Origin: Actinomycetes bacterium
GTDB lineage: Bacteria; Actinomycetota; Actinomycetes; Actinomycetales; Microbacteriaceae
Assembly (NCBI GenBank): GCA_030426515.1
Contig: JAUHYM010000004.1
Span: 1-45,196, forward strand
Reading direction: 5' to 3'
Length of the DNA stretch: 45,196 nt
Part shown: positions 6,594-37,886 of the stretch, one piece after another
Layout: each line of letters starts with the position of its first letter
Position numbering within the stretch: position 1 is the stretch's first letter
The notes under the pieces: generated by a model
The model's input: only the letters and a program-made list of their open reading frames with translations
Database searches by the model: none
Told to the model about the DNA's origin: nothing
Made by a program: the position numbers and the translations under genes

Positions 6594-7376
6594 TCAATCG
6601 TCACCCCGCAGCCCGAGCGACCGCCCCCCGTCGACCGTGAGGTCCTGACCGGTGATGAAGGCCGCGCCGGGGCCGGCGAGGAACACCACCGCTTGCGCGA
6701 CGTCCTCCGCGCGCCCCATGCGATGGAGCACGTTGGTCTCGCGTACTCTCTCGATCTCCTCCAGAGTCGGCTCGCCGCGCAGCACGATGCCGGGCGAAAC
6801 ACAGTTCACCGTGACTCCATGCGGGCCCAGCTCGATCGCCGCGGAACGGCTGTAGCCCACCAGGCCTGCCTTGGCGGCCGCATAGTCGGCGAAGCCAGCC
6901 TTTCCGTGGTGGGCGATGACGGATCCCACGTTGATGATCCGACCCGCGTGCTGTGCGATCATCGCGGCAGACGCGGCTCGGGTGCACGCGATGGCCGCGC
7001 GCAGGTTGATTGCCAGAACGCGGTCGATGACACTGAGCGGGATGGTCCACACCGGGCCGTTTTGGCCCCGGGAGCTTCCCCCCGCGCAGTTCACGAGGAT
7101 ATCGATCCGTCCCAGACCCGCGAAGAACGCCGTGATCTCGTCGTCGTCGGCGAGATCGACTCTCGCCGTGGTGCAGGTTCCCCCGACTTTCTCGGCGTCG
7201 CGGGCGACGTCGCTGAGCTTCTGCGCGTCTCGTCCGATGGCGTGCACGTGCGCACCATGCGCCGCAAGGTGAAGCACGATCGCGCGACCGATCGTCCCGC
7301 TGCCCCCCGTGACGACCGCGGTCGTCCCGGCCAGGCTTCCCGGCTCTGCGACACGGAGTTCGTATGGTCGCGACAT
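6594..7376 (-). CDS. SDR-family oxidoreductase
   Basis: TGGSGTIG cofactor motif, NCAGG, S...YAAAK catalytic motif, C-terminal TVDGG; start could also be the ATG at 7451. Confidence 0.9.
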   Translation of the reverse strand: MSRPYELRVAEPGSLAGTTAVVTGGSGTIGRAIVLHLAAHGAHVHAIGRDAQKLSDVARDAEKVGGTCTTARVDLADDDEITAFFAGLGRIDILVNCAGGSSRGQNGPVWTIPLSVIDRVLAINLRAAIACTRAASAAMIAQHAGRIINVGSVIAHHGKAGFADYAAAKAGLVGYSRSAAIELGPHGVTVNCVSPGIVLRGEPTLEEIERVRETNVLHRMGRAEDVAQAVVFLAGPGAAFITGQDLTVDGGRSLGLRGDD

Positions 7377-7532
7377 CACCACGCGGGTGAGGCGTTCGCG
7401 AAAGGGGCGCAGGATCGCAGACGCTACCTTTCGTGGACGTTGCGTCAGCAAGATCGACCTCCTGCCGTGGATCGCGACGACTCTAGTGCCTCATCGTCGC
7501 GAACCCGGGCAAGCCAACAATACTGTTGCAGG

Positions 7533-8660
7533 ATGGGGAGCAAGGGCCGGGTCGGCATTGTCACAATCAACGATGACGAGAACTACGGGAATCGCCTGCA
7601 GAACTTCGCACTCCAGCAGGCGGTTCGCGCGCTCGGGTGGGAGCCGGAGACGCTGCGCAACAGGCCCGCTCCCTGGCCCCCCGAGCTCTTCTGGCCACGC
7701 ATGCGGCACGATCTGGCGACCCGACCGATGGACCTTCTACGGCGCGCGGCGGTGAGAATGCGCCGCGGAGCGCGCCGTCCCGAATTCGCGCCGCGACGTC
7801 GCGCCGCGATCGAGCAGTTCACTCGGGAGCGCGTGGTGGGCTCGCCCGAGGAATTCGACGCGGCACCTGCCGAGTACTGGTCGACGCGTTATGAGCGGGC
7901 GATCGTGGGGTCGGATCAGGTCTGGAACCCGGTCTACCGCCGCGCCAACGCCGCCGACTTTCTCGCGTTCATGGATCCGGATCGCCGCATCGCGTACGCC
8001 GCGAGCTTCGGTGTGCAGTCGATTCCAGGGTTTCTTCGCACCCGCTATGCCGCATGGCTCGACGGGATTCCCGCGCTCTCCGTCCGGGAGGAACAAGGGG
8101 CACGCATCGTCGCCGAGCTGACCGGGCGAGCAGTCCCCGTGGTCGCGGACCCGACCGTGTTGGTCTCCCGTGAGCAGTGGGATGATCTCATCAGGACCAG
8201 CTCTGCTCCTGTGGACGATCCGTACGCGCTCCAGTTCTTCCTCGGAACGCCGACCACCCAGCAGGTGCAGTGGGTGCGGACGACCGTGATGCAGGAGGAC
8301 CTGTGTGTTGTCGACGCCAACGACCTCCATACCGAGAGGTGGTGCGACCTGGGGCCTGCCGACTTCGTGTTGGCGATCAGGAATGCGTCCCTCGTGATCA
8401 CGGACTCCTTCCACGTCGCGTCTTTCGCGGTGGTCTATCATCGCCCTCTCGTCCTCCGGGAGAGATTCGCGCACGACGACCGAATGGGAACACTGCTCCG
8501 GGGGGTGGGTTTGCGTACACGACCGGTGCGTGTCCCCGGGATCGGCCGGGTGATCGACGCAGACTGGGTGGAGGTCGACGCACGTCGAGAGAGGGATCGG
8601 GCCGACTCCCTGCGGTTTCTGGCGGACGCGCTGGACGGTCGGTCGGCGGCGCGTGGGTAG
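7533..8660 (+). CDS. Polysaccharide pyruvyl transferase family protein
   Basis: VGIVTINDDENYGNRLQNFALQQAV; VGSDQVWNP; ITDSFHVASFAVVYHRP. Confidence 0.88.
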   Translation: MGSKGRVGIVTINDDENYGNRLQNFALQQAVRALGWEPETLRNRPAPWPPELFWPRMRHDLATRPMDLLRRAAVRMRRGARRPEFAPRRRAAIEQFTRERVVGSPEEFDAAPAEYWSTRYERAIVGSDQVWNPVYRRANAADFLAFMDPDRRIAYAASFGVQSIPGFLRTRYAAWLDGIPALSVREEQGARIVAELTGRAVPVVADPTVLVSREQWDDLIRTSSAPVDDPYALQFFLGTPTTQQVQWVRTTVMQEDLCVVDANDLHTERWCDLGPADFVLAIRNASLVITDSFHVASFAVVYHRPLVLRERFAHDDRMGTLLRGVGLRTRPVRVPGIGRVIDADWVEVDARRERDRADSLRFLADALDGRSAARG

Positions 8661-8721
8661 GATCGGCAACGCGACTGCCCGGACGCCGTGCGGGGAGCGA
8701 CGACGACGGTTGGGGCTGTGA

Positions 8722-10461
8722 ATGTACGCCAACGAGCCTCTGGTGCTGGAGATGCTCGCTCTCCTGAAGGCGCACGGCGTCCGCGACGTGGTGATCTCCC
8801 CCGGCAGCCGTCACTACGCGTTCACCCGCAGCTTCGAGGCCGATGATTTCTTCCGCCTCCACTCCGTGGTCGACGAGCGCTCTGCCGGGTTCTTCGCGAT
8901 CGGACTGACGCAGGCGTCGGGTGAGCCCGCGGCGATGATGTGCACGTCAGGATCTGCCGCGGTGAACTATGCCTCGGCGATGGCGGAGGCATATTATCAA
9001 CGGCGTCCGCTGATCGCCATCACCAGCGACCGACTCCCTGAGAACCTCGGTCAGGTCGAAGATCAGATGATCGACCAGCGAGGGATCTACGACGGGTTCG
9101 TCCGCTTCTCTGGGCAGCTCCGGCCCATTCGCGATGCCCGGGACCGTTGGTTCTGCAACCGGGTGATCAATGAGGCGTTGCTTGAGGCGACACGCGCTGG
9201 GAGCGGCCCTGTTCACCTCAACGTCCCGATCGGAAGCCACTCCGGCGGCACATTCGACGTCCCCGCTCTCCCCCGAGTGCGCGTCATCGCACGGCACGGT
9301 GAGGCGGCGGCCCGCATCGACTGGCAGGCTGTCGTAGACCGGCTGGCGGGAAAGCGAATCCTCGTTGCTTGGGGGCAGGACGATCCGCCGGATAGCGGGA
9401 CGGGCGATGCCCTCGCAGAGTTCGCAGCGACCTTCGGGGCGGTCGTCATCGCCGACCACCTCGCCAATATCCGTGGGGACCACCGTCTGCGCAATCCACT
9501 CGGGCTCCTCCGCGCGCTCGGTCCGGCCAAGGGAAAGATCTCACCGGACATCGTGATCGGCGGCGGCGGGCAGATGCTCTTCAAAGATGACCTCGCTCGT
9601 CTGATCGGCGCGAGCGGGTTCGAATATTGGCGCATCGACCCGAAGGGTGAGGTCGCGGACCCGTTCCGGACCCTCACGGACATCTTCTCGACGACGCCGG
9701 CTGACTTCTTCCAAGGCGTCGTCGCCAGTGCGTCGTCGACGATCGGACCGTCACCCTATGGTGCCCGGCTGAGGGCGCTCGTCGAGAAGCTGCCACTCCC
9801 TGACTCTCGGCACGGTGAGATGTCCACGATCGGGTCGCTGCTGCGCCGCGTGCCGGCCGGCTCCAGCGTGCAAATCGCGAACAGCGCACCGGTGCGCATG
9901 GCTGAGATGTTCCCGCTCGACCCGAGTATCGACGTCTTCTGCAATCGAGGCGTCAACGGGATCGATGGTTGCCTGTCCACCGCCATCGGGTACGCCAAAG
10001 CGTGCGATGTGCCGACCTTCGTCATCATCGGGGACCTGGCGTTCTTCTATGACATGAACGCGCTCACCATCCGAGACCTGCCTGCGGGCCTCCGCATCCT
10101 CCTGGTCAACAACGGCGGGGGTGCGGTCATGCACGCGCCGCTGCCCTACGACTACACGCGTCACGGAGGGCGTCACGTGAGCGCCGAGCATTCGATCGAT
10201 GCGCGCGGCTGGATCGAATCGCTGGGGGTCGAGTATGACCGGCTGGATCCGGGGGGCGACACCGGGCGGGCGGTCGCTTGGCTCTCCGATCTGGGTCACC
10301 GGGGTCCCCGCGTCCTGGAGGCGTTCTCGGACAAGATCGACGACATCGAGCAGCTTCGCGGTTTCAACGCCACCCTCGCGATGGGTACCGGTTCTGCCGG
10401 TGTCTATCGACGACTGCGGCGGTTCGCTGGTCGGATCCTGCGACGCCTCGGGTTGCGGTAG
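8722..10461 (+). CDS. MenD-like thiamine-diphosphate-dependent enzyme (divergent paralogue in a glycan locus)
   Basis: MenD-type motifs: SPGSR, DERSAGFFAIGL, TSGSAAVNYASAMAEAYYQRRPLIAITSDR, NSAPVRM, NRGVNGIDGCLSTA, GDLAFFYDMNAL...LLVNNGGGAV; extra basic C-terminal tail RRLRRFAGRILRRLGLR. Confidence 0.88.
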   Translation: MYANEPLVLEMLALLKAHGVRDVVISPGSRHYAFTRSFEADDFFRLHSVVDERSAGFFAIGLTQASGEPAAMMCTSGSAAVNYASAMAEAYYQRRPLIAITSDRLPENLGQVEDQMIDQRGIYDGFVRFSGQLRPIRDARDRWFCNRVINEALLEATRAGSGPVHLNVPIGSHSGGTFDVPALPRVRVIARHGEAAARIDWQAVVDRLAGKRILVAWGQDDPPDSGTGDALAEFAATFGAVVIADHLANIRGDHRLRNPLGLLRALGPAKGKISPDIVIGGGGQMLFKDDLARLIGASGFEYWRIDPKGEVADPFRTLTDIFSTTPADFFQGVVASASSTIGPSPYGARLRALVEKLPLPDSRHGEMSTIGSLLRRVPAGSSVQIANSAPVRMAEMFPLDPSIDVFCNRGVNGIDGCLSTAIGYAKACDVPTFVIIGDLAFFYDMNALTIRDLPAGLRILLVNNGGGAVMHAPLPYDYTRHGGRHVSAEHSIDARGWIESLGVEYDRLDPGGDTGRAVAWLSDLGHRGPRVLEAFSDKIDDIEQLRGFNATLAMGTGSAGVYRRLRRFAGRILRRLGLR

Positions 10462-11673: not shown

Positions 11674-12534
11674 ATGGAAACAGCGCACGGGGTGACGGCC
11701 GTCCCGCTCTCGGTGCGCCTGCATCTGGGACGGGCCGCCGTTCAGGTCGCCGCGCAGCGCTGTGGTGCGGACATCCTCCACATCAAGGGCGATGCGGTCG
11801 ACCGTGACATCCGTCCGGCCGGACGCTGGGGTTCGGATGTCGACATCCTCGTTCGGCCCCGAGACGTCGCCACTCTGCATCGTGCACTGACGGATGCCGG
11901 ATGGACGGTCTACTCGCGCTTCGCGACGGGATCCCCCTTCGGGCACGCGCAGACCTACACGCACGACCACTTCGGCTACCTCGACGTTCACCGCTTCTTC
12001 CCGGGAATCGAGCGGACGCCCTCGACCGCGTTCGACTATCTGTGGGCATCCCGGTCGACCAAGGACTTCGGGGGGATCCCGTGCCCGATCCCGAGTCCTG
12101 ACCATCAGGCGGTCATCCTCATCCTCAACGCCGCCCGGAACGGCGGCAGCACAAGTGCCGACATGCGACGACTGTGGACGGATGCGGACGACCAGTCGCG
12201 CGCGCGGCTGCGGCGCCAGGTCGACATCCTCGAGGCGCACGTCGCGTTCGATGCCTCGCGCGGAGAGATTGAGCGACACCGCGGTGCGCGCACGTACCGC
12301 ATGTGGCGTGCGGTGTCGACGGGAGGCGGTCGCCTCGCTGAGTGGTGGGGGCGTGTCGTCGCGGCGCGCAGCATCCGCCAGAAGATCCGGCTCGTCCTGC
12401 GCGCGCCGCTGGTCAACACGGAACACCTCGCCCATCGACTCGGCCGCGCGCCCACCGCGCGCGAGGTGTTCGTCGAGTTCTTCGCGCGCCCGGCGCGTGG
12501 GGTCGCCGAACTGCGGGGGCGATCGCGACGATGA
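11674..12534 (+). CDS. Uncharacterised nucleotidyltransferase family protein (NTP_transf_5-like)
   Basis: ILHIKGDAVDRDIRPAGRWGSDVDILVRPRDV resembles the K-G-x...R..SD(V/I)D(I/L)LV core of that family. Confidence 0.8.
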   Translation: METAHGVTAVPLSVRLHLGRAAVQVAAQRCGADILHIKGDAVDRDIRPAGRWGSDVDILVRPRDVATLHRALTDAGWTVYSRFATGSPFGHAQTYTHDHFGYLDVHRFFPGIERTPSTAFDYLWASRSTKDFGGIPCPIPSPDHQAVILILNAARNGGSTSADMRRLWTDADDQSRARLRRQVDILEAHVAFDASRGEIERHRGARTYRMWRAVSTGGGRLAEWWGRVVAARSIRQKIRLVLRAPLVNTEHLAHRLGRAPTAREVFVEFFARPARGVAELRGRSRR

Positions 12535-12791
12535 GCATCCTCCTGCCCGCCGCCGACGTCGGCGTCGAAATCGACGGCGACACGGTGTACCTCGCCCACC
12601 TGCCGGCAGGGCCCATCGTCGTGCTCGAGGGGACGGCGGCCGAGGTCTGGCACGCGGCGCGCGGGGCAGACGAGTACGAGGCGGTGGCCGCGGTCGCTGG
12701 CGCGCACGACGCGGATCCCGCCGACGTCGCCGCGGACGTCGGCGCCTTCATCGAGCAGCTCATCGCGGACGGGTTTCTGCGGCGGGCGTGA
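12531..12791 (+). CDS. PqqD family protein
   Basis: 86 aa; PqqD-like pattern (VVLEGTAAEVWHAARG...FIEQLIADGFL); ATGA overlap with the preceding CDS. Confidence 0.75.
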   Translation: MSILLPAADVGVEIDGDTVYLAHLPAGPIVVLEGTAAEVWHAARGADEYEAVAAVAGAHDADPADVAADVGAFIEQLIADGFLRRA

Positions 12792-12854: not shown

Positions 12855-14312
12855 ATGAGCCGAGCGTCTGCACGGGCCGTCAGCTGGCGCACGCGCCTCC
12901 TCGACGGCTGGGCAGGTCTCTGGCGGTGGGTGCTGCTCGCTCTCGGCACCGTTCTGGCCGCGCATTTCATCCTCGAGCGCGCCGACGGCAACGCGATAGC
13001 GACCGCCGCGGTGCTCGGGGGACTCGTCATCGGTGTCGTCTTGACGTTCTCGACACCGCTGGCGATTGCGCTCATGGCGACGCCCGCCTTGTTCATCGTG
13101 CAGCGCGTCGGATTCGGCGGTGGAGACCTCTCGGTCTCGGATGCCGCGCTGGCGGGAGCGTTCGGTGCCGCCGTGCTCTTCGGCAAGTACCCCTACAGCC
13201 GTCCGATGAAGCTGTTGCTGGTGTTCAACCTGGTCTACCAATTCGCCACGCTCTTCACCGTCATCGTCAATCCTCAGGTCGAGAACACGGTCGAGTGGTT
13301 CCATGCATGGCTCCTGATCTCGGGTGCGCTGATCGTCGGGTGGGCGCTGGGTCGAGGTGGCTTCGCACGGACGGCCCTGCTGATGATTGTGGGCGCTGGC
13401 GCGGTCATCGCCGCGGGTACGGTGCTCACTGCCGTGTTCCAGTACGCCTCCGGTGACTTCGGTCCCGTCTACCCGGTGTGGCCGCTCGTCATGCACAAGA
13501 ACGCTGCCGGTACGCTGATCGCGTTCGCGGCGATGACCGCGTATGTCAACCCGCCGTGGCTGGCCATTCGTCGCACGGCGGCGGTGTCCATCCTCTCCCT
13601 CCTGGTCGTCGCGCTCCTCGCGACTCAGTCGCGCCAGGCACTCATCGGACTCGTCTTCGGTGTGGTCGTCGTGGCGCTCCGCGCCCGCTCCGTCGGCCGT
13701 TCGCGGTGGCCGCTCCTGCTCGTGATACCCGGAGTCTGGGTCATCGTTGCCGCGGTGATCGAGCAGATCGAGTCGCAGAACCAGCACAACTCGTTCTTCC
13801 AGCGTCTGGACTGGCTGCGCGAGGTGTACGCGTTCTGGAAGCACTCGCCGATCTTCGGTCACGGGCTCCGCTTCTGGTATTACGAGCCAGCAGTCCCCTA
13901 CCAGCCGCCGCAGGCGGAGGTGGAGGTCATCGCGTCTTCGGGCTTGGTCGGCCTGGCTGCGTTCATCGTGATGTGGATCGGCATCCTCGTGGTGCTGTGG
14001 CGGTTGGATCCGACATACGGCACCCTGGCGCTCGCCGTGGTGGGCGGCCGCATCGCCCAGGCGCAGTTCGACCTGTTCTGGGTGGCGGCGCAGGTGTCGA
14101 TTCCGTTCGTGATCGCGGGGATCTGTCTCGGAGCGATGGCGCTCAGAGACACCGGTACCGCGGCCGAGGTGCAGGTGGACGGCGCGAAGGCTCCGCCTGG
14201 TGAAGGGGTGACGGTGGGGACCGTGACGTACGATGGAGGACATCCGACGAGGGGCGCACCCGGTGCGGACTCAGTAACGACACCGCCGGGAGGGTCGCAT
14301 GGAAGTGACTGA
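12855..14312 (+). CDS. O-antigen ligase / Wzy-type polymerase family membrane protein
   Basis: Many TM segments; Wzy_C-like loop QNQHNSFFQRLDWLREVYAFWKHSPIFGHGLRFWYYE; overlaps the next CDS. Confidence 0.85.
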   Translation: MSRASARAVSWRTRLLDGWAGLWRWVLLALGTVLAAHFILERADGNAIATAAVLGGLVIGVVLTFSTPLAIALMATPALFIVQRVGFGGGDLSVSDAALAGAFGAAVLFGKYPYSRPMKLLLVFNLVYQFATLFTVIVNPQVENTVEWFHAWLLISGALIVGWALGRGGFARTALLMIVGAGAVIAAGTVLTAVFQYASGDFGPVYPVWPLVMHKNAAGTLIAFAAMTAYVNPPWLAIRRTAAVSILSLLVVALLATQSRQALIGLVFGVVVVALRARSVGRSRWPLLLVIPGVWVIVAAVIEQIESQNQHNSFFQRLDWLREVYAFWKHSPIFGHGLRFWYYEPAVPYQPPQAEVEVIASSGLVGLAAFIVMWIGILVVLWRLDPTYGTLALAVVGGRIAQAQFDLFWVAAQVSIPFVIAGICLGAMALRDTGTAAEVQVDGAKAPPGEGVTVGTVTYDGGHPTRGAPGADSVTTPPGGSHGSD

Positions 14313-15846
14313 CTACCTCCGCGGCATCCTGCGCCATTGGCTGGCGATCCTTCTGATGACTCTCGTCGGGCTGGGTGCCGCGTTCGGTTGGGTGCTCCTG
14401 CAGACACCGGTCTACGAGGCGACCTCTGTCGGCCTCGTGCAAAGCCGTTCCTCTGCGGCTGCCGACGACGAGAACGGTCAGCTCCTCCAGCCGGCGTTCG
14501 ACTCGATCGCGCGCGGGAAGGTCCCGACCTACCTCGACATGGCGACGTGGCGGGTGGTGGCGGACGGCGCGATCGCCGAACTCGGACTCGCCACCACGCC
14601 CGAGGCCGTCGTGCAGCGCATCACCATCGAGAACCCCAACGAGACGTCCATCATCCGCGTCACCGCGCAGGGCGAGACCCCCGCCGAGGCGGCGGCGCTG
14701 TCGGAGGCGTGGCTGACCTCGCTCGCCTCCACGATCGACGCCGTCGAGGGCGAAGAGGGGGCCGAGGGGTCGTCCCCGGTCACGATCTTCGTGACGTCGG
14801 CCGCGGCTCTGCCGCAGCGGCCGATCTTTCCCGACATCCAGACCGCGATGATCGTGGGCGCGGTCCTCGGCCTCGGTCTCGGCATTGCGTTCGCGCTCAT
14901 GCGCACCGTGTCCGATCGCCGCATCCGGGCTGCTGAAGACGTCGAGTCGCACACGTCGCTGCCGGTCGTCGGCGCGATCCCGAGTGCGCCGGGCGTATCC
15001 GAGCGGACGATCTTCGACACCGCGACCGGCGGCGACCGCGGGGCGAAGTTCGCGGTCTCAGAGTCGTTGCGTGCGCTGCGCACAAACCTGCAGTTCATGG
15101 ATGTCGACAACCCACCGCGCACGATCGTCGTCACCAGCCCGCTGCCCGGGGACGGCAAGTCGACGATCGCCTGCAACCTCGCGCACACGCTCGCGACCAA
15201 CGGCCAGCCGGTCGTCATCGTCGATGGTGACCTGCGGCGCCCGAAGGTGGCCGAGACGATCGGTGTGCCCGGTGGGGCGGGGCTCAGCGACGTCCTCTCG
15301 GGCCGCGCCGATCTGTCCGACGTGCTGCAGCGCGCACCCGGTGTCGAGCACCTGTTCGTGCTCACCGCCGGGAGCACGCCTCCGAACCCGAGCGAGGTCC
15401 TCGGATCCGATCGCATGCGCAAGCTCCTCGCCGACCTGGCCGGGCACGCGACGGTCATCATCGATGCACCGCCGCTCCTCCCGGTCACCGACGGCGCGGT
15501 GCTCACGCACCAGTCCGACGGTGCGCTGATGGTCATCACGGCCGGCAAGACCACCTATGACCTGCTCGACAAGGCCCTGGGGACGCTGACCAAGGCCGGG
15601 GGCCGCGCGCTCGGCGTCGTGCTGAACAAGACGCCGCTGCGCGGGCCGAACTCGTCCGCGTACTCGTACGAGTACCGCCGCGAGTACGGTCCGGCCGAAG
15701 AGCAGGTCGCGCCGAAGAAGCGCTCGACCGCGAGCGCGGACCTCGACGACATCTTCGCGGACACCGACGCCGAGTCCGCTCCGCCTGCGGCGGCGTCGCC
15801 GCCGACCCCCGCCCGCACGGTTCGCGAGCGCGCTCGCCAGGGGTGA
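14299..15846 (+). CDS. Polysaccharide co-polymerase fused to tyrosine autokinase (Wzz/BY-kinase)
   Basis: N- and C-terminal TM Wzz domain; Walker A PLPGDGKST, A' VIVDGDLRRP, B TVIIDAPP; tyrosine cluster YSYEYRREY. Confidence 0.95.
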   Translation: MEVTDYLRGILRHWLAILLMTLVGLGAAFGWVLLQTPVYEATSVGLVQSRSSAAADDENGQLLQPAFDSIARGKVPTYLDMATWRVVADGAIAELGLATTPEAVVQRITIENPNETSIIRVTAQGETPAEAAALSEAWLTSLASTIDAVEGEEGAEGSSPVTIFVTSAAALPQRPIFPDIQTAMIVGAVLGLGLGIAFALMRTVSDRRIRAAEDVESHTSLPVVGAIPSAPGVSERTIFDTATGGDRGAKFAVSESLRALRTNLQFMDVDNPPRTIVVTSPLPGDGKSTIACNLAHTLATNGQPVVIVDGDLRRPKVAETIGVPGGAGLSDVLSGRADLSDVLQRAPGVEHLFVLTAGSTPPNPSEVLGSDRMRKLLADLAGHATVIIDAPPLLPVTDGAVLTHQSDGALMVITAGKTTYDLLDKALGTLTKAGGRALGVVLNKTPLRGPNSSAYSYEYRREYGPAEEQVAPKKRSTASADLDDIFADTDAESAPPAAASPPTPARTVRERARQG

Positions 15847-17002: not shown

Positions 17003-18208
17003 TCATCGTCGGGGCCTCAGCCGCCGAGCCATCGACGGGTAGTGAGTGCGCAGGAGCTTGCCAACCCGTCGGCGCTCACGTCGAAGAGCGTTGCGGATTC
17101 GAAGGTCAAGCGCGCGCGCTCTGCTCGTCAACGAGGGATGCCAGTCGCGCGACGAGGCGAACGCGAGGATCTCGCGCTCGATGGGTTCGTCGGATGCAAG
17201 TATCACGGGGAGTTGGCGAACAAGCGCAGCTTCATAGCAGTCGCGGTCAAAGGGCTGCGGAGTGAACGACTCGAGTGCTCCCGCGATCTCCAATGTGAGC
17301 AGTGTTCTAACGCACTTCGCACACGTCGAACAATTCGCGTTGATCGACGGCGCGTCGGAGATGCAGACATCGAGGTACTTGGCCTCAGCGCGACCGATGA
17401 GGCCAATTGTCTTCTCCACCCGGGTCTCTGCCGCGGACGACCAACGAATCGACAGATGTGAGGTCGAAAGTAGGGGGAGGAGCGCGGGTTCGATGGCCAC
17501 AGTTGAAGCGAGATCAGAACTGCGCCACTGCGCGAAGGAGTGGGCAGCCGCGTGGTGGTGGAGGCCGATTCCGCGCTGGAGGAGATGGACCGCGGCGGCG
17601 TTGCGTAAGGTGAACGTCTCCGCGAATCCCATACGGTCATAGTGCGAGTCGAGATTGCTGTCCACCTGCACGAGCGGTAACCCGAGTTCCGCTGCGAACG
17701 GTTGCAGACGTGCCAACCTCGCTTCCCTCAATCGCGCACCGTTGCGACCATGGGAACCAACATCGAAGTTGAGCAGGTGCGTCAGCCTGAGGGCTGGCGG
17801 GCACCATGACTCCATGGCGAACTCGCGGACCACTGCCATCGAGTCAACCCCACCCGAGAATTCGGTGCTCACGCCTGCGGCCTGCGCGCGTGGTGAGTGG
17901 GTTGCATCGGACGAGACCCGGACCCGCACCCGGGTCGACAGTGCGGCACCGAGGGCTTCCTGGAGGTCGTTGTTGGCGTTGTACAGGAGCTCGTCCGAGA
18001 CGGAGCCACCGATATGAAGATCCAGAGTTTGAGCCATCGCCGGCAACAGCATCGCGAGAAGAAGGTAATCCGAGTCGTGGCTCAGAAGCTCCTCGTGCTG
18101 TGATTGGATCTGAAACCACACTTCCGAGCCATCTGAACCGACCGACGTCACGCGGATCTGGTCGCCTCGAAGCTGTCGCATCGGGCGGGACAGTGTCAGG
18201 ATGGCCAC
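17003..18208 (-). CDS. PP-loop ATPase-like protein of unknown function with Cys cluster
   Basis: EFSGGVDSMAVV PP-loop (SGGxDS) and NCSTCAKCVRTLLTLE cysteine motif. Confidence 0.75.
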   Translation of the reverse strand: MAILTLSRPMRQLRGDQIRVTSVGSDGSEVWFQIQSQHEELLSHDSDYLLLAMLLPAMAQTLDLHIGGSVSDELLYNANNDLQEALGAALSTRVRVRVSSDATHSPRAQAAGVSTEFSGGVDSMAVVREFAMESWCPPALRLTHLLNFDVGSHGRNGARLREARLARLQPFAAELGLPLVQVDSNLDSHYDRMGFAETFTLRNAAAVHLLQRGIGLHHHAAAHSFAQWRSSDLASTVAIEPALLPLLSTSHLSIRWSSAAETRVEKTIGLIGRAEAKYLDVCISDAPSINANCSTCAKCVRTLLTLEIAGALESFTPQPFDRDCYEAALVRQLPVILASDEPIEREILAFASSRDWHPSLTSRARALDLRIRNALRRERRRVGKLLRTHYPSMARRLRPRR

Positions 18209-27344: not shown

Positions 27345-27893
27345 GTGAGCGAGAACAACGAGGTTGCGCCCGAGCAGCCCTCGGGCATCAGCCGCCGCAC
27401 TGTCACCAAGGCCATGGCGTGGGCCGTTCCCGCCATCGCCGTCGCTGCACCTGTACCCGCGTTCGCGGCGTCTGGGCCCAAGCCCATCGTCTCGGTGGGT
27501 ACTGCGTGCAAGAATCCGGGTGGCAGTTGCCATGTCGACGTGCTCAAGTTCGGCTACTCGGTACCAGTGACGCTCATCAACAACAGCAGCGAGGACATCT
27601 GGATCGGGACGCCACAGGTTGTGGCACAGAGCCCGTCCACACCAGTGTTCACGGGGGCCCTGTATCCAGCGGGGGCAGATTACCTCCCTGCGAGCGGCGG
27701 CACACTTCTCGTCTACTTTGTCGCACAGTCCACCAACAGTGCGAACATACAGAACGGATCCATCACGTTCGAGGTTGATTGGTTCCACGACGCGGCGAAG
27801 ACTGATCCCGACCACCTCGATGACCCGATCGTCGTCACAACCACCTGGGCGGCCACTCCGCCAAGCTGTAACTGCGGTGGTCCGACGCCGTAG
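27345..27893 (+). CDS. Secreted protein with twin-arginine signal
   Basis: SRRTVTKAMAWAVPAIAVAAPVPAFAAS (Tat motif, hydrophobic stretch, AFA-A cleavage); AGGAGG upstream of GTG start. Confidence 0.85.
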   Translation: MSENNEVAPEQPSGISRRTVTKAMAWAVPAIAVAAPVPAFAASGPKPIVSVGTACKNPGGSCHVDVLKFGYSVPVTLINNSSEDIWIGTPQVVAQSPSTPVFTGALYPAGADYLPASGGTLLVYFVAQSTNSANIQNGSITFEVDWFHDAAKTDPDHLDDPIVVTTTWAATPPSCNCGGPTP

Positions 27894-35149: not shown

Positions 35150-36208
35150 ATGATCAGCGCGCTCGCCGTCATCCTGCCGCTCGTGCTCGGCGCGGTGTTC
35201 GTCGCGAGCGGCATCGCCAAGCTGGTCCGCCCCGATGACCTGACGGGCTGGGCCGAACTCGGCGTGCCCCGTGCCCTGCGCCGCGCCTGGCTGCTGCGGG
35301 TGCACCCCTGGGCCGAGATCGCCCTCGGGGTCGCGCTCGCCGTGCTCGGCGGGCTGCTGGGCGTCGCGGCCGCCGTCGTCGCTGCGGCGATCCTGGCGGT
35401 CTACCTCGTCATGGTCGTGCGGCTCGTCCGCCGCCCCGACGACGCCTCGTGCGCGTGCTTCGGCGCGCGCAAGACGGTGACCGCGGTCACGGTCGTCCGC
35501 AATGCCTGGCTGCTCGCACTCGCGGTCGGTGCGGTCGCCGCAATCGGCGTGACCCCGCTGTGGGGCGGAGCGATCGCGGCGGCCGCGGGACAGGCCGCGT
35601 GGGTGGCCGGACTGGTGATCGCGGCGGTGACGGTCGGCGTGATCCTCTGGCCCGAGTCGTCGTCGCGCGATGAGCGCCATGCGGGCTCGTCGTCGGCGGG
35701 CACGCCTTCTGGTCTCGCCGAAGGGGAGTCGGCGACCGTCGACGGCTCGGTGGCCGAGCTCGACTACGTGCGCGTGCGCACCCCCTCCGTCCCCGTGGTC
35801 CTTGCCGATGGCGCGACGGTGAACCTTCGCCAACTCGCGATGCAGAAGCCCCTCCTGCTGCTCGCCGTGACTCACACATGCGGGTCGTGCCAGCCGGTGA
35901 TCGACAAGGTCGCCGAGTACCGGAATCGGCTGCCCGAACTGGATCTTCGGCTGCTGCTCACCTTCCCCCCGGAGGTCTCTCCGCTCACCGAGACCGGACC
36001 GCAGGGGTCGCTGCATGATGTGCACGACTACGTCCGCGGCTCGATCGCCGACTGGGCCACCCCCACAGCAGTGCTCTTCGGCGCCGACGGGATGCTGGCG
36101 GGAGGACCCGAGTCGGGGGCCGAGGCGATCGAGGCGTTCATCGACGACATCCGCGCCTCGCTCGACGAGGCGATCGCGCAGGTCCCCGCGACCGAGAAGA
36201 CGACCTGA
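35150..36208 (+). CDS. MauE/DoxX-like membrane protein fused to a thioredoxin-like (TlpA-type) domain
   Basis: TM bundle with CACFG motif (MauE), then a C-terminal domain with HTCGSC (CXXC) redox motif. Confidence 0.82.
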   Translation: MISALAVILPLVLGAVFVASGIAKLVRPDDLTGWAELGVPRALRRAWLLRVHPWAEIALGVALAVLGGLLGVAAAVVAAAILAVYLVMVVRLVRRPDDASCACFGARKTVTAVTVVRNAWLLALAVGAVAAIGVTPLWGGAIAAAAGQAAWVAGLVIAAVTVGVILWPESSSRDERHAGSSSAGTPSGLAEGESATVDGSVAELDYVRVRTPSVPVVLADGATVNLRQLAMQKPLLLLAVTHTCGSCQPVIDKVAEYRNRLPELDLRLLLTFPPEVSPLTETGPQGSLHDVHDYVRGSIADWATPTAVLFGADGMLAGGPESGAEAIEAFIDDIRASLDEAIAQVPATEKTT

Positions 36209-36272: not shown

Positions 36273-36986
36273 ATGAACAGTCGCATCCTTCGCGCCCTGA
36301 CCGGTCTCGCCCTCGCCCCGCTGGTGATCGCGGGATGCGCCACCGGAAGCGGGACCGCATCGGACCCGGCCGCCGAGCCGCCCGCGCCGCAGCTCGCCGC
36401 CGCGTGGCTGGACGAGGGTCGCATGGTCGGGATCGTCACGTGGGGCAGCAGCAGCTGCGTGCCGATGGCCGAGGACATCTCGTACGAAACCGGAGCGCTG
36501 ACCGTCGAGCTCGTCGACCCCGAGGATCAGCCCTGCACGGCCGACTATGCACCTCGGACAACGCTCGTCGGCGTCGAGGGCGGCTTCGACCCGTCCGCGG
36601 ATCTCGACATCACGGTGACCGGCGTCTATGCCGGCTCGACGAAGCTCTCCGCGGCCGCGGGTACCGCGCCCGACGACGGCGCGAGCGCGGGCATGACGGA
36701 CTATCAGCCGAGCGCCGGGTGGTACGCGTCGGACGGATTCTCGCTGCTGACGTGGGGAAGCTCGACATGCGCTCCCGAGCTGGAGGCGGCGGAGGCCACC
36801 GCCGCGACCGAGGTCACCGTCACGTTCGTGACACCGCCCGCCGACCGCGCCTGCACGATGGACATGGCACCGCGGGTGCTCACCGTCTCGCTCGACGCGT
36901 CCTCGCTCGACGACGGCCAGGTCCAAGCCATCCTCAACGGTGACGAGTATCGCGGGGTGCGGGTGCCGATCGTCGGCAGCCGCTGA
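36273..36986 (+). CDS. Lipoprotein with two Cys-paired repeats
   Basis: Lipobox LVIAGC; two repeats W...WGSS(S/T)C.P...CT.D.APR. Confidence 0.82.
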   Translation: MNSRILRALTGLALAPLVIAGCATGSGTASDPAAEPPAPQLAAAWLDEGRMVGIVTWGSSSCVPMAEDISYETGALTVELVDPEDQPCTADYAPRTTLVGVEGGFDPSADLDITVTGVYAGSTKLSAAAGTAPDDGASAGMTDYQPSAGWYASDGFSLLTWGSSTCAPELEAAEATAATEVTVTFVTPPADRACTMDMAPRVLTVSLDASSLDDGQVQAILNGDEYRGVRVPIVGSR

Positions 36987-37124
36987 TCGGGCTCTATCGC
37001 TGCACGCGGCCCTGCGTCCCGTTGCCCTGTGGTCCCGCACGTTTCGTGCCGCGCTGACCCTGCGCGCCGCGTCGGCGCGGCGGCATCCGTCATGCTGGGA
37101 GGAGGGACGACGAACGGAGCCGAC

Positions 37125-37886
37125 GTGACGCGCAGAATCGCCTCGTGGGGAGCTGGTGCCGCGGCGCTCACGCTGACCGCCGCTCTCGCCGGCTGCGCCA
37201 CCGGGACCTCGGTCGACCCCGGGTCCAACGGGCAGGAGGTGCCCGACGGGGGCAACGAGCAGCAGATCCTCGTCGATGCCGCCTGGCTGGAATCGGGGCG
37301 GTCGATCGGTCTCATCACCGAGGGCAGCTCGTCGTGCGTTCCCACCACTGACGAGGTGACGGTCACCGACGCCGGTGCGCTCGCCGTCGTCCTCGCCGAT
37401 CCCGCCGAGGACGAGCCGTGCACGCGCGACATGGCGCCACGCATCACCCTCGTCGCGGTGCCGGACGGCGTCGACCCGCAGGACGACCTCACCATCGACG
37501 TGTCCGGGCCGGGCTATGAGGGCGCCGTGACGATCAACGGGGTGCCGGGGCTCTCGCCCGACGACGCCGACGAGACCCAGCTACCGCCCACCGCCGGCTG
37601 GACCCAGCAGGACGGGCAGTTCATCATCCTCAGCTACGGCAGCTCCACCTGCGAGCCCGTGTTCGAGGGGGCCGAGACCACCGCCGAATCCGAGATCACG
37701 GTCACGTTCGCCGATCTGGACGAGACCACCCCCTGCACCGCGGATCTCGCACCGCGGACCACCCTGGCCTTCGCCGACGGGCATCGCGACCAGCCCGACG
37801 TCGACCTGGTGCTCACCGGCGGCGGCTTCGACGACGTCACGCTGAAGATCTACGGGGCGAACTGGAGCCCGATCCCGCCGGGCTGA
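37125..37886 (+). CDS. Lipoprotein, paralogue of the preceding gene
   Basis: GTG start; lipobox AALAGC; two repeats GSS(S/T)C.P...PCT.D.APRxTL. Confidence 0.82.
   Translation: MTRRIASWGAGAAALTLTAALAGCATGTSVDPGSNGQEVPDGGNEQQILVDAAWLESGRSIGLITEGSSSCVPTTDEVTVTDAGALAVVLADPAEDEPCTRDMAPRITLVAVPDGVDPQDDLTIDVSGPGYEGAVTINGVPGLSPDDADETQLPPTAGWTQQDGQFIILSYGSSTCEPVFEGAETTAESEITVTFADLDETTPCTADLAPRTTLAFADGHRDQPDVDLVLTGGGFDDVTLKIYGANWSPIPPG

Follow-up and report, generated by a model that had tools for sequence, protein, structure and literature searches.

A nucleotidyltransferase-PqqD gene pair of actinobacterial exopolysaccharide loci is probably part of a lasso-type tailoring module for a leader-bearing class of exported proteins

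Results

A nucleotidyltransferase and a PqqD-family protein overlap within an exopolysaccharide locus

We analyzed a stretch of 45,196 nucleotides of Microbacteriaceae DNA (contig JAUHYM010000004.1; hereafter, the window), which belongs to a 2.5-Mb, 73%-complete genome with Microbacterium and Agromyces as its closest relatives by gene content. An exopolysaccharide (EPS) locus in the window encodes an NTP_transf_5-type nucleotidyltransferase (NTase; PF14907 cut-off 31.2 bits) followed by a PqqD-family RiPP recognition element (RRE; PF05402 cut-off 23.4 bits), and a profile search found one copy of each family in the host genome. The original prediction, made from the sequence alone, had described two coding sequences that overlap by ATGA directly upstream of a Wzy-like gene; both the overlap and the position were confirmed at the coordinates listed in Table 1.

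Table 1. Coordinates of the gene pair, its locus context, and a probable substrate within the window
Feature	Position	Strand	Details
NTP_transf_5-type Pol-beta-fold nucleotidyltransferase ("N" component)	11674..12534	+	286 aa, ATG start; PF14907 47.1 bits
Codons of DxD catalytic motif, D55-V-D57	11836..11844	+	Invariant alignment columns
Codon of third catalytic acid, D104	11983-11985	+	Invariant alignment column
ATGA stop/start overlap of NTase and PqqD genes	12531..12534	+	Sequence
PqqD-family RiPP recognition element ("B1" component)	12531..12791	+	86 aa, ATG start; PF05402 40.6 bits
Wzy_C / O-antigen-ligase-type polymerase or ligase (locus context)	12855..14312	+	PF04932 45.3 bits
Wzz/BY-kinase (locus context)	14299..15846	+	TIGR01007 158 bits
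Leader-bearing exported 4-Cys protein, probable substrate, same locus	27345..27893	+	Leader profile E 8.0e-14; homologs in related loci
30-residue leader, GISRRTVTKAMAWAVPAIAVAAPVPAFAAS	27384..27473	+	Leader profile match
Key codon of leader, W(-17)	27420-27422	+	
Key codon of leader, P(-14)	27429-27431	+	
Key codon of leader, I(-12)	27435-27437	+	
Key codon of leader, Ser(+1)	27471-27473	+	
MauE-type redox membrane protein	35150..36208	+	PF07291 65.4 bits; ortholog immediately 3' of PqqD in at least seven relatives

The MauE protein of the window is 45-53% identical to the operon copies in relatives; its gene lies 22 kb from the PqqD gene and outside the PqqD operon, a poor fit to the arrangement seen in relatives. 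Beside it are two tandem lipoprotein-like paralogs with paired cysteines (36273-37886), which are possible disulfide clients. Elsewhere in this glycan locus, at 6594-10461, the gene for a MenD-like TPP enzyme adjoins those for an SDR and a polysaccharide pyruvyl transferase (PSpyrT), a trio that recurs as SDR-MenD-PSpyrT in two Agromyces loci (L198 and L201). A PP-loop-like protein with SGGVDS and CxxCxKC motifs and without a Pfam match is encoded on the reverse strand at 17003-18208 and has homologs in the EPS loci of three genomes (G263, G321, and G317).

The NTase and PqqD genes are paired across related actinobacteria

In a family sample of 250 genomes, NTP_transf_5 was present in 34, PqqD in 45, and both in 26 (Fisher 1.5e-16, ignoring phylogeny). 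Using an alignment of nine close NTase sequences, we then collected 51 related loci via the NTase from named relatives that include Microbacterium, Agromyces, Raineyella, Propioniciclava, Ornithinimicrobium, Phycicoccus, and Tetrasphaera. PqqD was immediately 3' of the NTase in 40 of the 47 loci that were evaluable for its position, with exactly the same -4 nt overlap in 28, and in two genomes (G019 and G222) the two Pfam matches fell within a single open frame, forming natural fusions. The pairing is therefore beyond chance, and the co-occurrence that had been put forward as a check is conserved.

The gene 3' of PqqD varied among the 40 loci (Wzy in 11, MauE in 10, an ABC transporter in 5, and a PP-loop protein in 3), and several further genes of the EPS locus also travel together across related loci. 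One explanation of the pair is that it modifies the glycan or the polysaccharide machinery, such as the Wzy-like polymerase or Wzz/BY-kinase, with PqqD recruiting that protein. Its location in EPS loci beside Wzy (11/40 loci) or BY-kinase and LMW-phosphatase genes is in keeping with this, but the changing identity of the 3' gene is not, and the co-occurrence with dispersed leader-bearing proteins described below would be left unexplained, making this explanation very unlikely. Nucleotidylation of the polymerase or of the BY-kinase, as initially suggested, has no specific support beyond gene proximity.

The NTase is catalytically intact and the PqqD protein resembles lasso B1 proteins

Across 48 NTase homologs, K38, G39, D55, D57, D104, and H106 are invariant, so that both the DxD motif and the third aspartate of the catalytic site are intact. 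Foldseek searches with an AlphaFold2 model of the NTase (pLDDT 93.2) returned LnuA, MenT1, and ANT(2'') and, with weaker matches, the ribitol-phosphate transferase FKRP. These matches define a Pol-beta-type fold and give no reading of the transferred group. We rejected a role as a toxin or antibiotic-resistance enzyme, as the MenT1, LnuA, and ANT(2'') folds might suggest, since the RRE fusion, the synteny, and the partner kinase described below speak against it.

The AlphaFold2 model of the PqqD protein (pLDDT 97.1) adopts the topology of an RRE. The closest PDB entries were complexes of the lasso B1 protein TbiB1 with leader peptides (TM 0.82-0.84 for the best of them), followed by another lasso B1-leader complex and then by PqqD itself. 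Against the PQQ-biosynthesis model TIGR03859, the protein scored 15.2 bits and failed the cut-off of 46. From these comparisons, we infer that the window PqqD is a lasso-type B1/RRE that is predicted to bind a leader.

Relatives encode a partner kinase related to HPr kinase

The genomes of relatives encode a ~370-aa P-loop protein akin to HPr kinase. Its His, GxxGxGKT, and Asp-Glu motifs are invariant, and its C-terminus forms a PqqD-like domain. PF05402 matched above its cut-off at the C-terminus of some of these kinases (45.4 bits for the kinase-PqqD fusion in L080). In the family sample, the kinase was strongly detected in 23 of 250 genomes, 20 of which carry a Pfam-level NTP_transf_5 match and the other 3 an NTase homolog found with a custom profile; in the genus sample, it was present in 29/30 NTase-positive versus 0/10 NTase-negative genomes. 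The kinase gene lies within the window-like locus (type B) in G295, G338, and G263 and about 100 kb away from it in G344. In the 73%-complete host genome of the window, a search for an HprK-like gene gave generic P-loop matches only. The original prediction had placed the pair in a locus without a RiPP pathway, which holds for genes of the radical-SAM type but not for the lasso-type kinase that relatives also encode.

The HPr-rel-A system (TIGR04352 kinase, TIGR04353 PqqD) likewise pairs an HprK-related kinase with a member of the PqqD family. Scores here are, however, far under the curated cut-offs (20.5-21.1 bits for the relatives' kinases against the TIGR04352 cut-off of 200, and no match of the window PqqD to TIGR04353), the kinase has its own PqqD domain, and NTP_transf_5 is added.

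Lasso clusters of the same family use the same components

As a positive control, we used the lasso clusters of the same family (type A loci), which encode PqqD, Transglut_core3 (B2), Asn_synthase (C), an ABC transporter, an HprK-related kinase (K), and NTP_transf_5 (N); their precursors, such as MAYESPRISEVGRFSSVTRGSWKP..., carry Y(-17), P(-14), I/V(-12), and T(-2). Five Microbacteriaceae lasso clusters with K and N genes have readable precursors (L087, L089, L090, L092, and L094), and several of the clusters lie near genes for a hemL-like aminotransferase, PIG-L, and a glycosyltransferase. In pseudomycoidin, a Ser that has been phosphorylated by PsmK receives a hexose through the action of PsmN (PMC9266682). 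BsfK, an HPr-like kinase, likewise phosphorylates a Ser of the core, with strong stimulation from its RRE, and the recognition motif of lasso B1 proteins is placed at -17/-14/-12 (PMC10368454); a W/Y/LxxP motif is described in lasso leaders (PMC12710340).

Type B loci retain B1, K, and N. Neither Transglut_core3 nor Asn_synthase was found among the Pfam-scanned genes of the window or the annotated genes of type B neighborhoods, and the real lasso clusters form the separate type A set, so we rejected an ordinary lasso cluster as the identity of the window locus. A degenerate or cryptic cluster, with B2, C, and the precursor encoded elsewhere, would fit the lasso-B1-like PqqD and the related lasso clusters in the family, but given the same missing genes and the fact that the type B NTases form a distinct subfamily, we regard it as highly improbable.

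A lasso-spaced motif lies within the leader of many exported proteins

Although no obvious precursor had been noted in the window, the locus does encode a likely substrate, the leader-bearing protein in Table 1, and a start of the GISRRTVTKAMAWAVPAIAVAAPVPAFAAS type is found on a small exported protein in many type B loci. We collected 123 distinct leader proteins, which fall into 59 mature-domain clusters and number up to 32 matches per genome, with their genes scattered; their mature parts of about 56-606 aa do not correspond to a lasso-type short precursor with a small core. Some of the leader genes are close to the system, lying beside the NTase gene in L192, L195, L197, and L220 and 3' of the kinase gene in L204.

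The leader is Tat-like and essentially gapless, with the consensus RRT(V/I/L)xKGAAW-xx-P-x-(I/V)...AAA-S (by position, R1 R2 T3 (V/L/I) x K (G/A) A A W10 S V P13 V (I/V)15 A x A V A (T/A) P22 x A A A26 S27). Among the 123 leaders, W10, P13, and A26 are conserved at 95-99% and S27 at 96%, where the frequencies of W, P, and S27 are inflated because the collection profile contains these residues and a W/P pattern filter dropped 2 of 125 sequences. Information falls from 4.1 to 0.9 bits immediately past S27. Numbering S27 as +1, in line with the signal-peptidase site expected at AxA↓S, we found an aromatic residue at -17 in 99% of the leaders, P at -14 in 99%, and L/I/V at -12 in 98% (W and P again being inflated by selection). 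This W(-17)/P(-14)/(I/V)(-12) spacing is that of the lasso B1 recognition motif and of the precursors of type A loci, and neither the spacing match nor the boundary past S27 is subject to selection by the profile or the filter.

The leader shares S-R-R-x-x-x-K, a hydrophobic stretch, and AxA with twin-arginine signal peptides and differs from them in its fixed length, its fixed W and two P, and the near-invariant Ser past AAA. It failed the Tat signal model PF10518 (10.1-12.2 bits, cut-off 22.7) even though its RR motif is invariant, and the NCBIfam matches were to sub-threshold Tat models only. The leader sequence suggests that these proteins take a Tat-like export route and are cleaved at AxA↓S. 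The putative RRE motif sits within the hydrophobic part of the export signal, where a role in export may also explain its conservation.

In another reading, PqqD would be a Tat proofreading chaperone that binds the twin-arginine-like signal and so delays export until folding or MauE-dependent disulfide formation, with the NTase acting separately in glycan synthesis. The twin-arginine-like motif and the position of MauE, 3' of PqqD in 10 loci and beside PqqD but apart from the NTase in L192, L195, and L197, are compatible with a chaperone. We nevertheless consider it unlikely, since it accounts neither for the NTase-PqqD fusions and the HprK-PqqD partner nor for the near-invariant Ser and the co-occurrence of the leaders with the NTase and kinase.

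A looser leader subclass (e.g. SRRTVLIGSAFAVPAITLTAATPALAVSG) was seen on proteins of 400-1000 aa in L349-L351, L354, and L355 (G269 and G301), with no NTase detected.

Leader proteins co-occur with the system

A whole-protein profile found matches, most of them confined to the leader, in 24/30 genomes with the system versus 0/10 without it. We then ran a gapless, leader-only profile of 30 residues on the same genus and family genome samples (E < 1e-6 for the family count). Leader proteins were present in 37/37 NTase-positive versus 3/62 NTase-negative genomes of the genus sample (Fisher 4.6e-24, ignoring phylogeny) and in 21/23 kinase-positive versus 4/227 kinase-negative genomes of the family sample (Fisher 1.6e-24, likewise ignoring phylogeny). 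The four kinase-negative genomes include two lasso-type (type A) genomes and the window's own incomplete genome; the type A genomes that carry leaders are G085 and G200. Because 8 of the 10 genera polymorphic for the kinase were fully concordant with leader presence, common descent does not by itself account for the association. We regard the linkage between system and leaders as well supported.

Two genomes (G164 and G215) carry the kinase without a leader match, and a relaxed leader search of their loci found nothing convincing. Conversely, G166 and G269 (99% complete) carry leader-like proteins with the system undetected, and two further discordant genomes (G272 and G301) are fragmented MAGs; the kinase, NTase, and PqqD were not found near the leader genes of these four. 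Such exceptions, together with the other locus genes that co-travel, would be expected if the leader class and the module merely accompanied a common surface lifestyle marked by the EPS locus, without direct contact. This seems quite unlikely to us, as the exact lasso-type spacing at -17/-14/-12 is what RRE binding would independently predict, the kinase tracks leaders even where it is far from the locus (G344), and the genera that vary in the kinase are so largely concordant.

Discussion

We propose that the NTase and PqqD are probably part of a lasso-type tailoring module (B1, N, and a K that almost all relatives possess) that acts on a genome-wide class of exported proteins with a shared leader. 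In the cytosol, PqqD would bind the leader at W(-17)xxP(-14)x(I/V)(-12), as its fold and the motif and spacing suggest. By analogy with lasso kinases, the near-invariant Ser(+1) would be phosphorylated by the HprK-like kinase, with the PqqD domain at the C-terminus of the kinase giving additional guidance, and the NTase, if it acts like PsmN, would transfer a nucleotide, hexose, or polyol-phosphate onto Ser(+1); this chemistry is argued from analogy. Export after translation, with which the twin-arginine-like motif is compatible, would leave time for modification. Export and cleavage at AxA↓S would then expose the modified Ser and, more speculatively, permit its joining to the polysaccharide of the same locus.

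The idea that a PqqD fold is reused here to recruit a partner for the NTase thus stands as far as the recognition module is concerned, and a secreted acceptor fits best among the partners proposed, most of which were probably not the right ones. What the original prediction overlooked is the HprK-like kinase, the affinity of PqqD to lasso-type proteins, and the genome-wide WxxPx(I/V) leader class.

The module apparently puts known parts to a new use. Like B1-K-N tailoring in paeninodin, pseudomycoidin (PsmK/PsmN), and Bradymonas bsf, it combines a PqqD/RRE, an HPr-kinase-like K, and a nucleotidyltransferase N, with WxxPx(I/V) here at -17/-14/-12 like lasso YxxPxL and Ser as the likely target. 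Unlike in those pathways, neither a B2 protease nor a C cyclase nor a short precursor was detected in type B loci, the candidate substrates are many unrelated, scattered exported proteins, and the motif lies inside an export signal. RREs are also paired with export-signal precursors in DUF2063/DUF2282-type systems, whose precursors carry a Sec signal and were not recognized to contain a specific RRE motif (PMC12710340); here, by contrast, there is a lasso-spaced WxxPx(I/V) motif on many unrelated substrates. Our search of the open-access literature found no description of an EPS-linked PqqD/NTase/HprK system or of the leader strings.

The PEP-CTERM/exosortase system also has one EPS-locus machinery and many dispersed exported proteins with a common short signal, though the signal here is N-terminal rather than C-terminal and the machinery is a cytosolic RRE, kinase, and NTase rather than a membrane transpeptidase. 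A bolder version of our proposal, which we consider possible but doubtful, is that dozens of exported proteins have their first residue modified in the cytosol by the RRE-guided kinase and NTase, which would attach a phospho-linked sugar or nucleotide, and that the EPS locus joins the tagged proteins to extracellular polysaccharide, making this a new general pathway of protein tagging and sorting in Gram-positive actinobacteria, a counterpart of PEP-CTERM/exosortase built from lasso parts. Its last step, the linkage of proteins to polysaccharide through the tag, is speculative.

RiPP recognition domains are usually associated with short peptide natural products. Should one such reader serve up to about 30 unrelated exported proteins in a genome, modification guided by a leader would also be a general way of processing proteins. 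A 30-residue signal would then suffice to predict a whole class of unannotated surface proteins, a tractable substrate would be at hand for the poorly understood NTP_transf_5 family, and there would be a hint of how actinobacteria might attach proteins to a polysaccharide matrix.

Finally, a signal peptidase I (S26) gene adjoins the HprK-like kinase gene in five loci from several genera (L065, L071, L074, L076, and L096) and could encode a dedicated leader peptidase.
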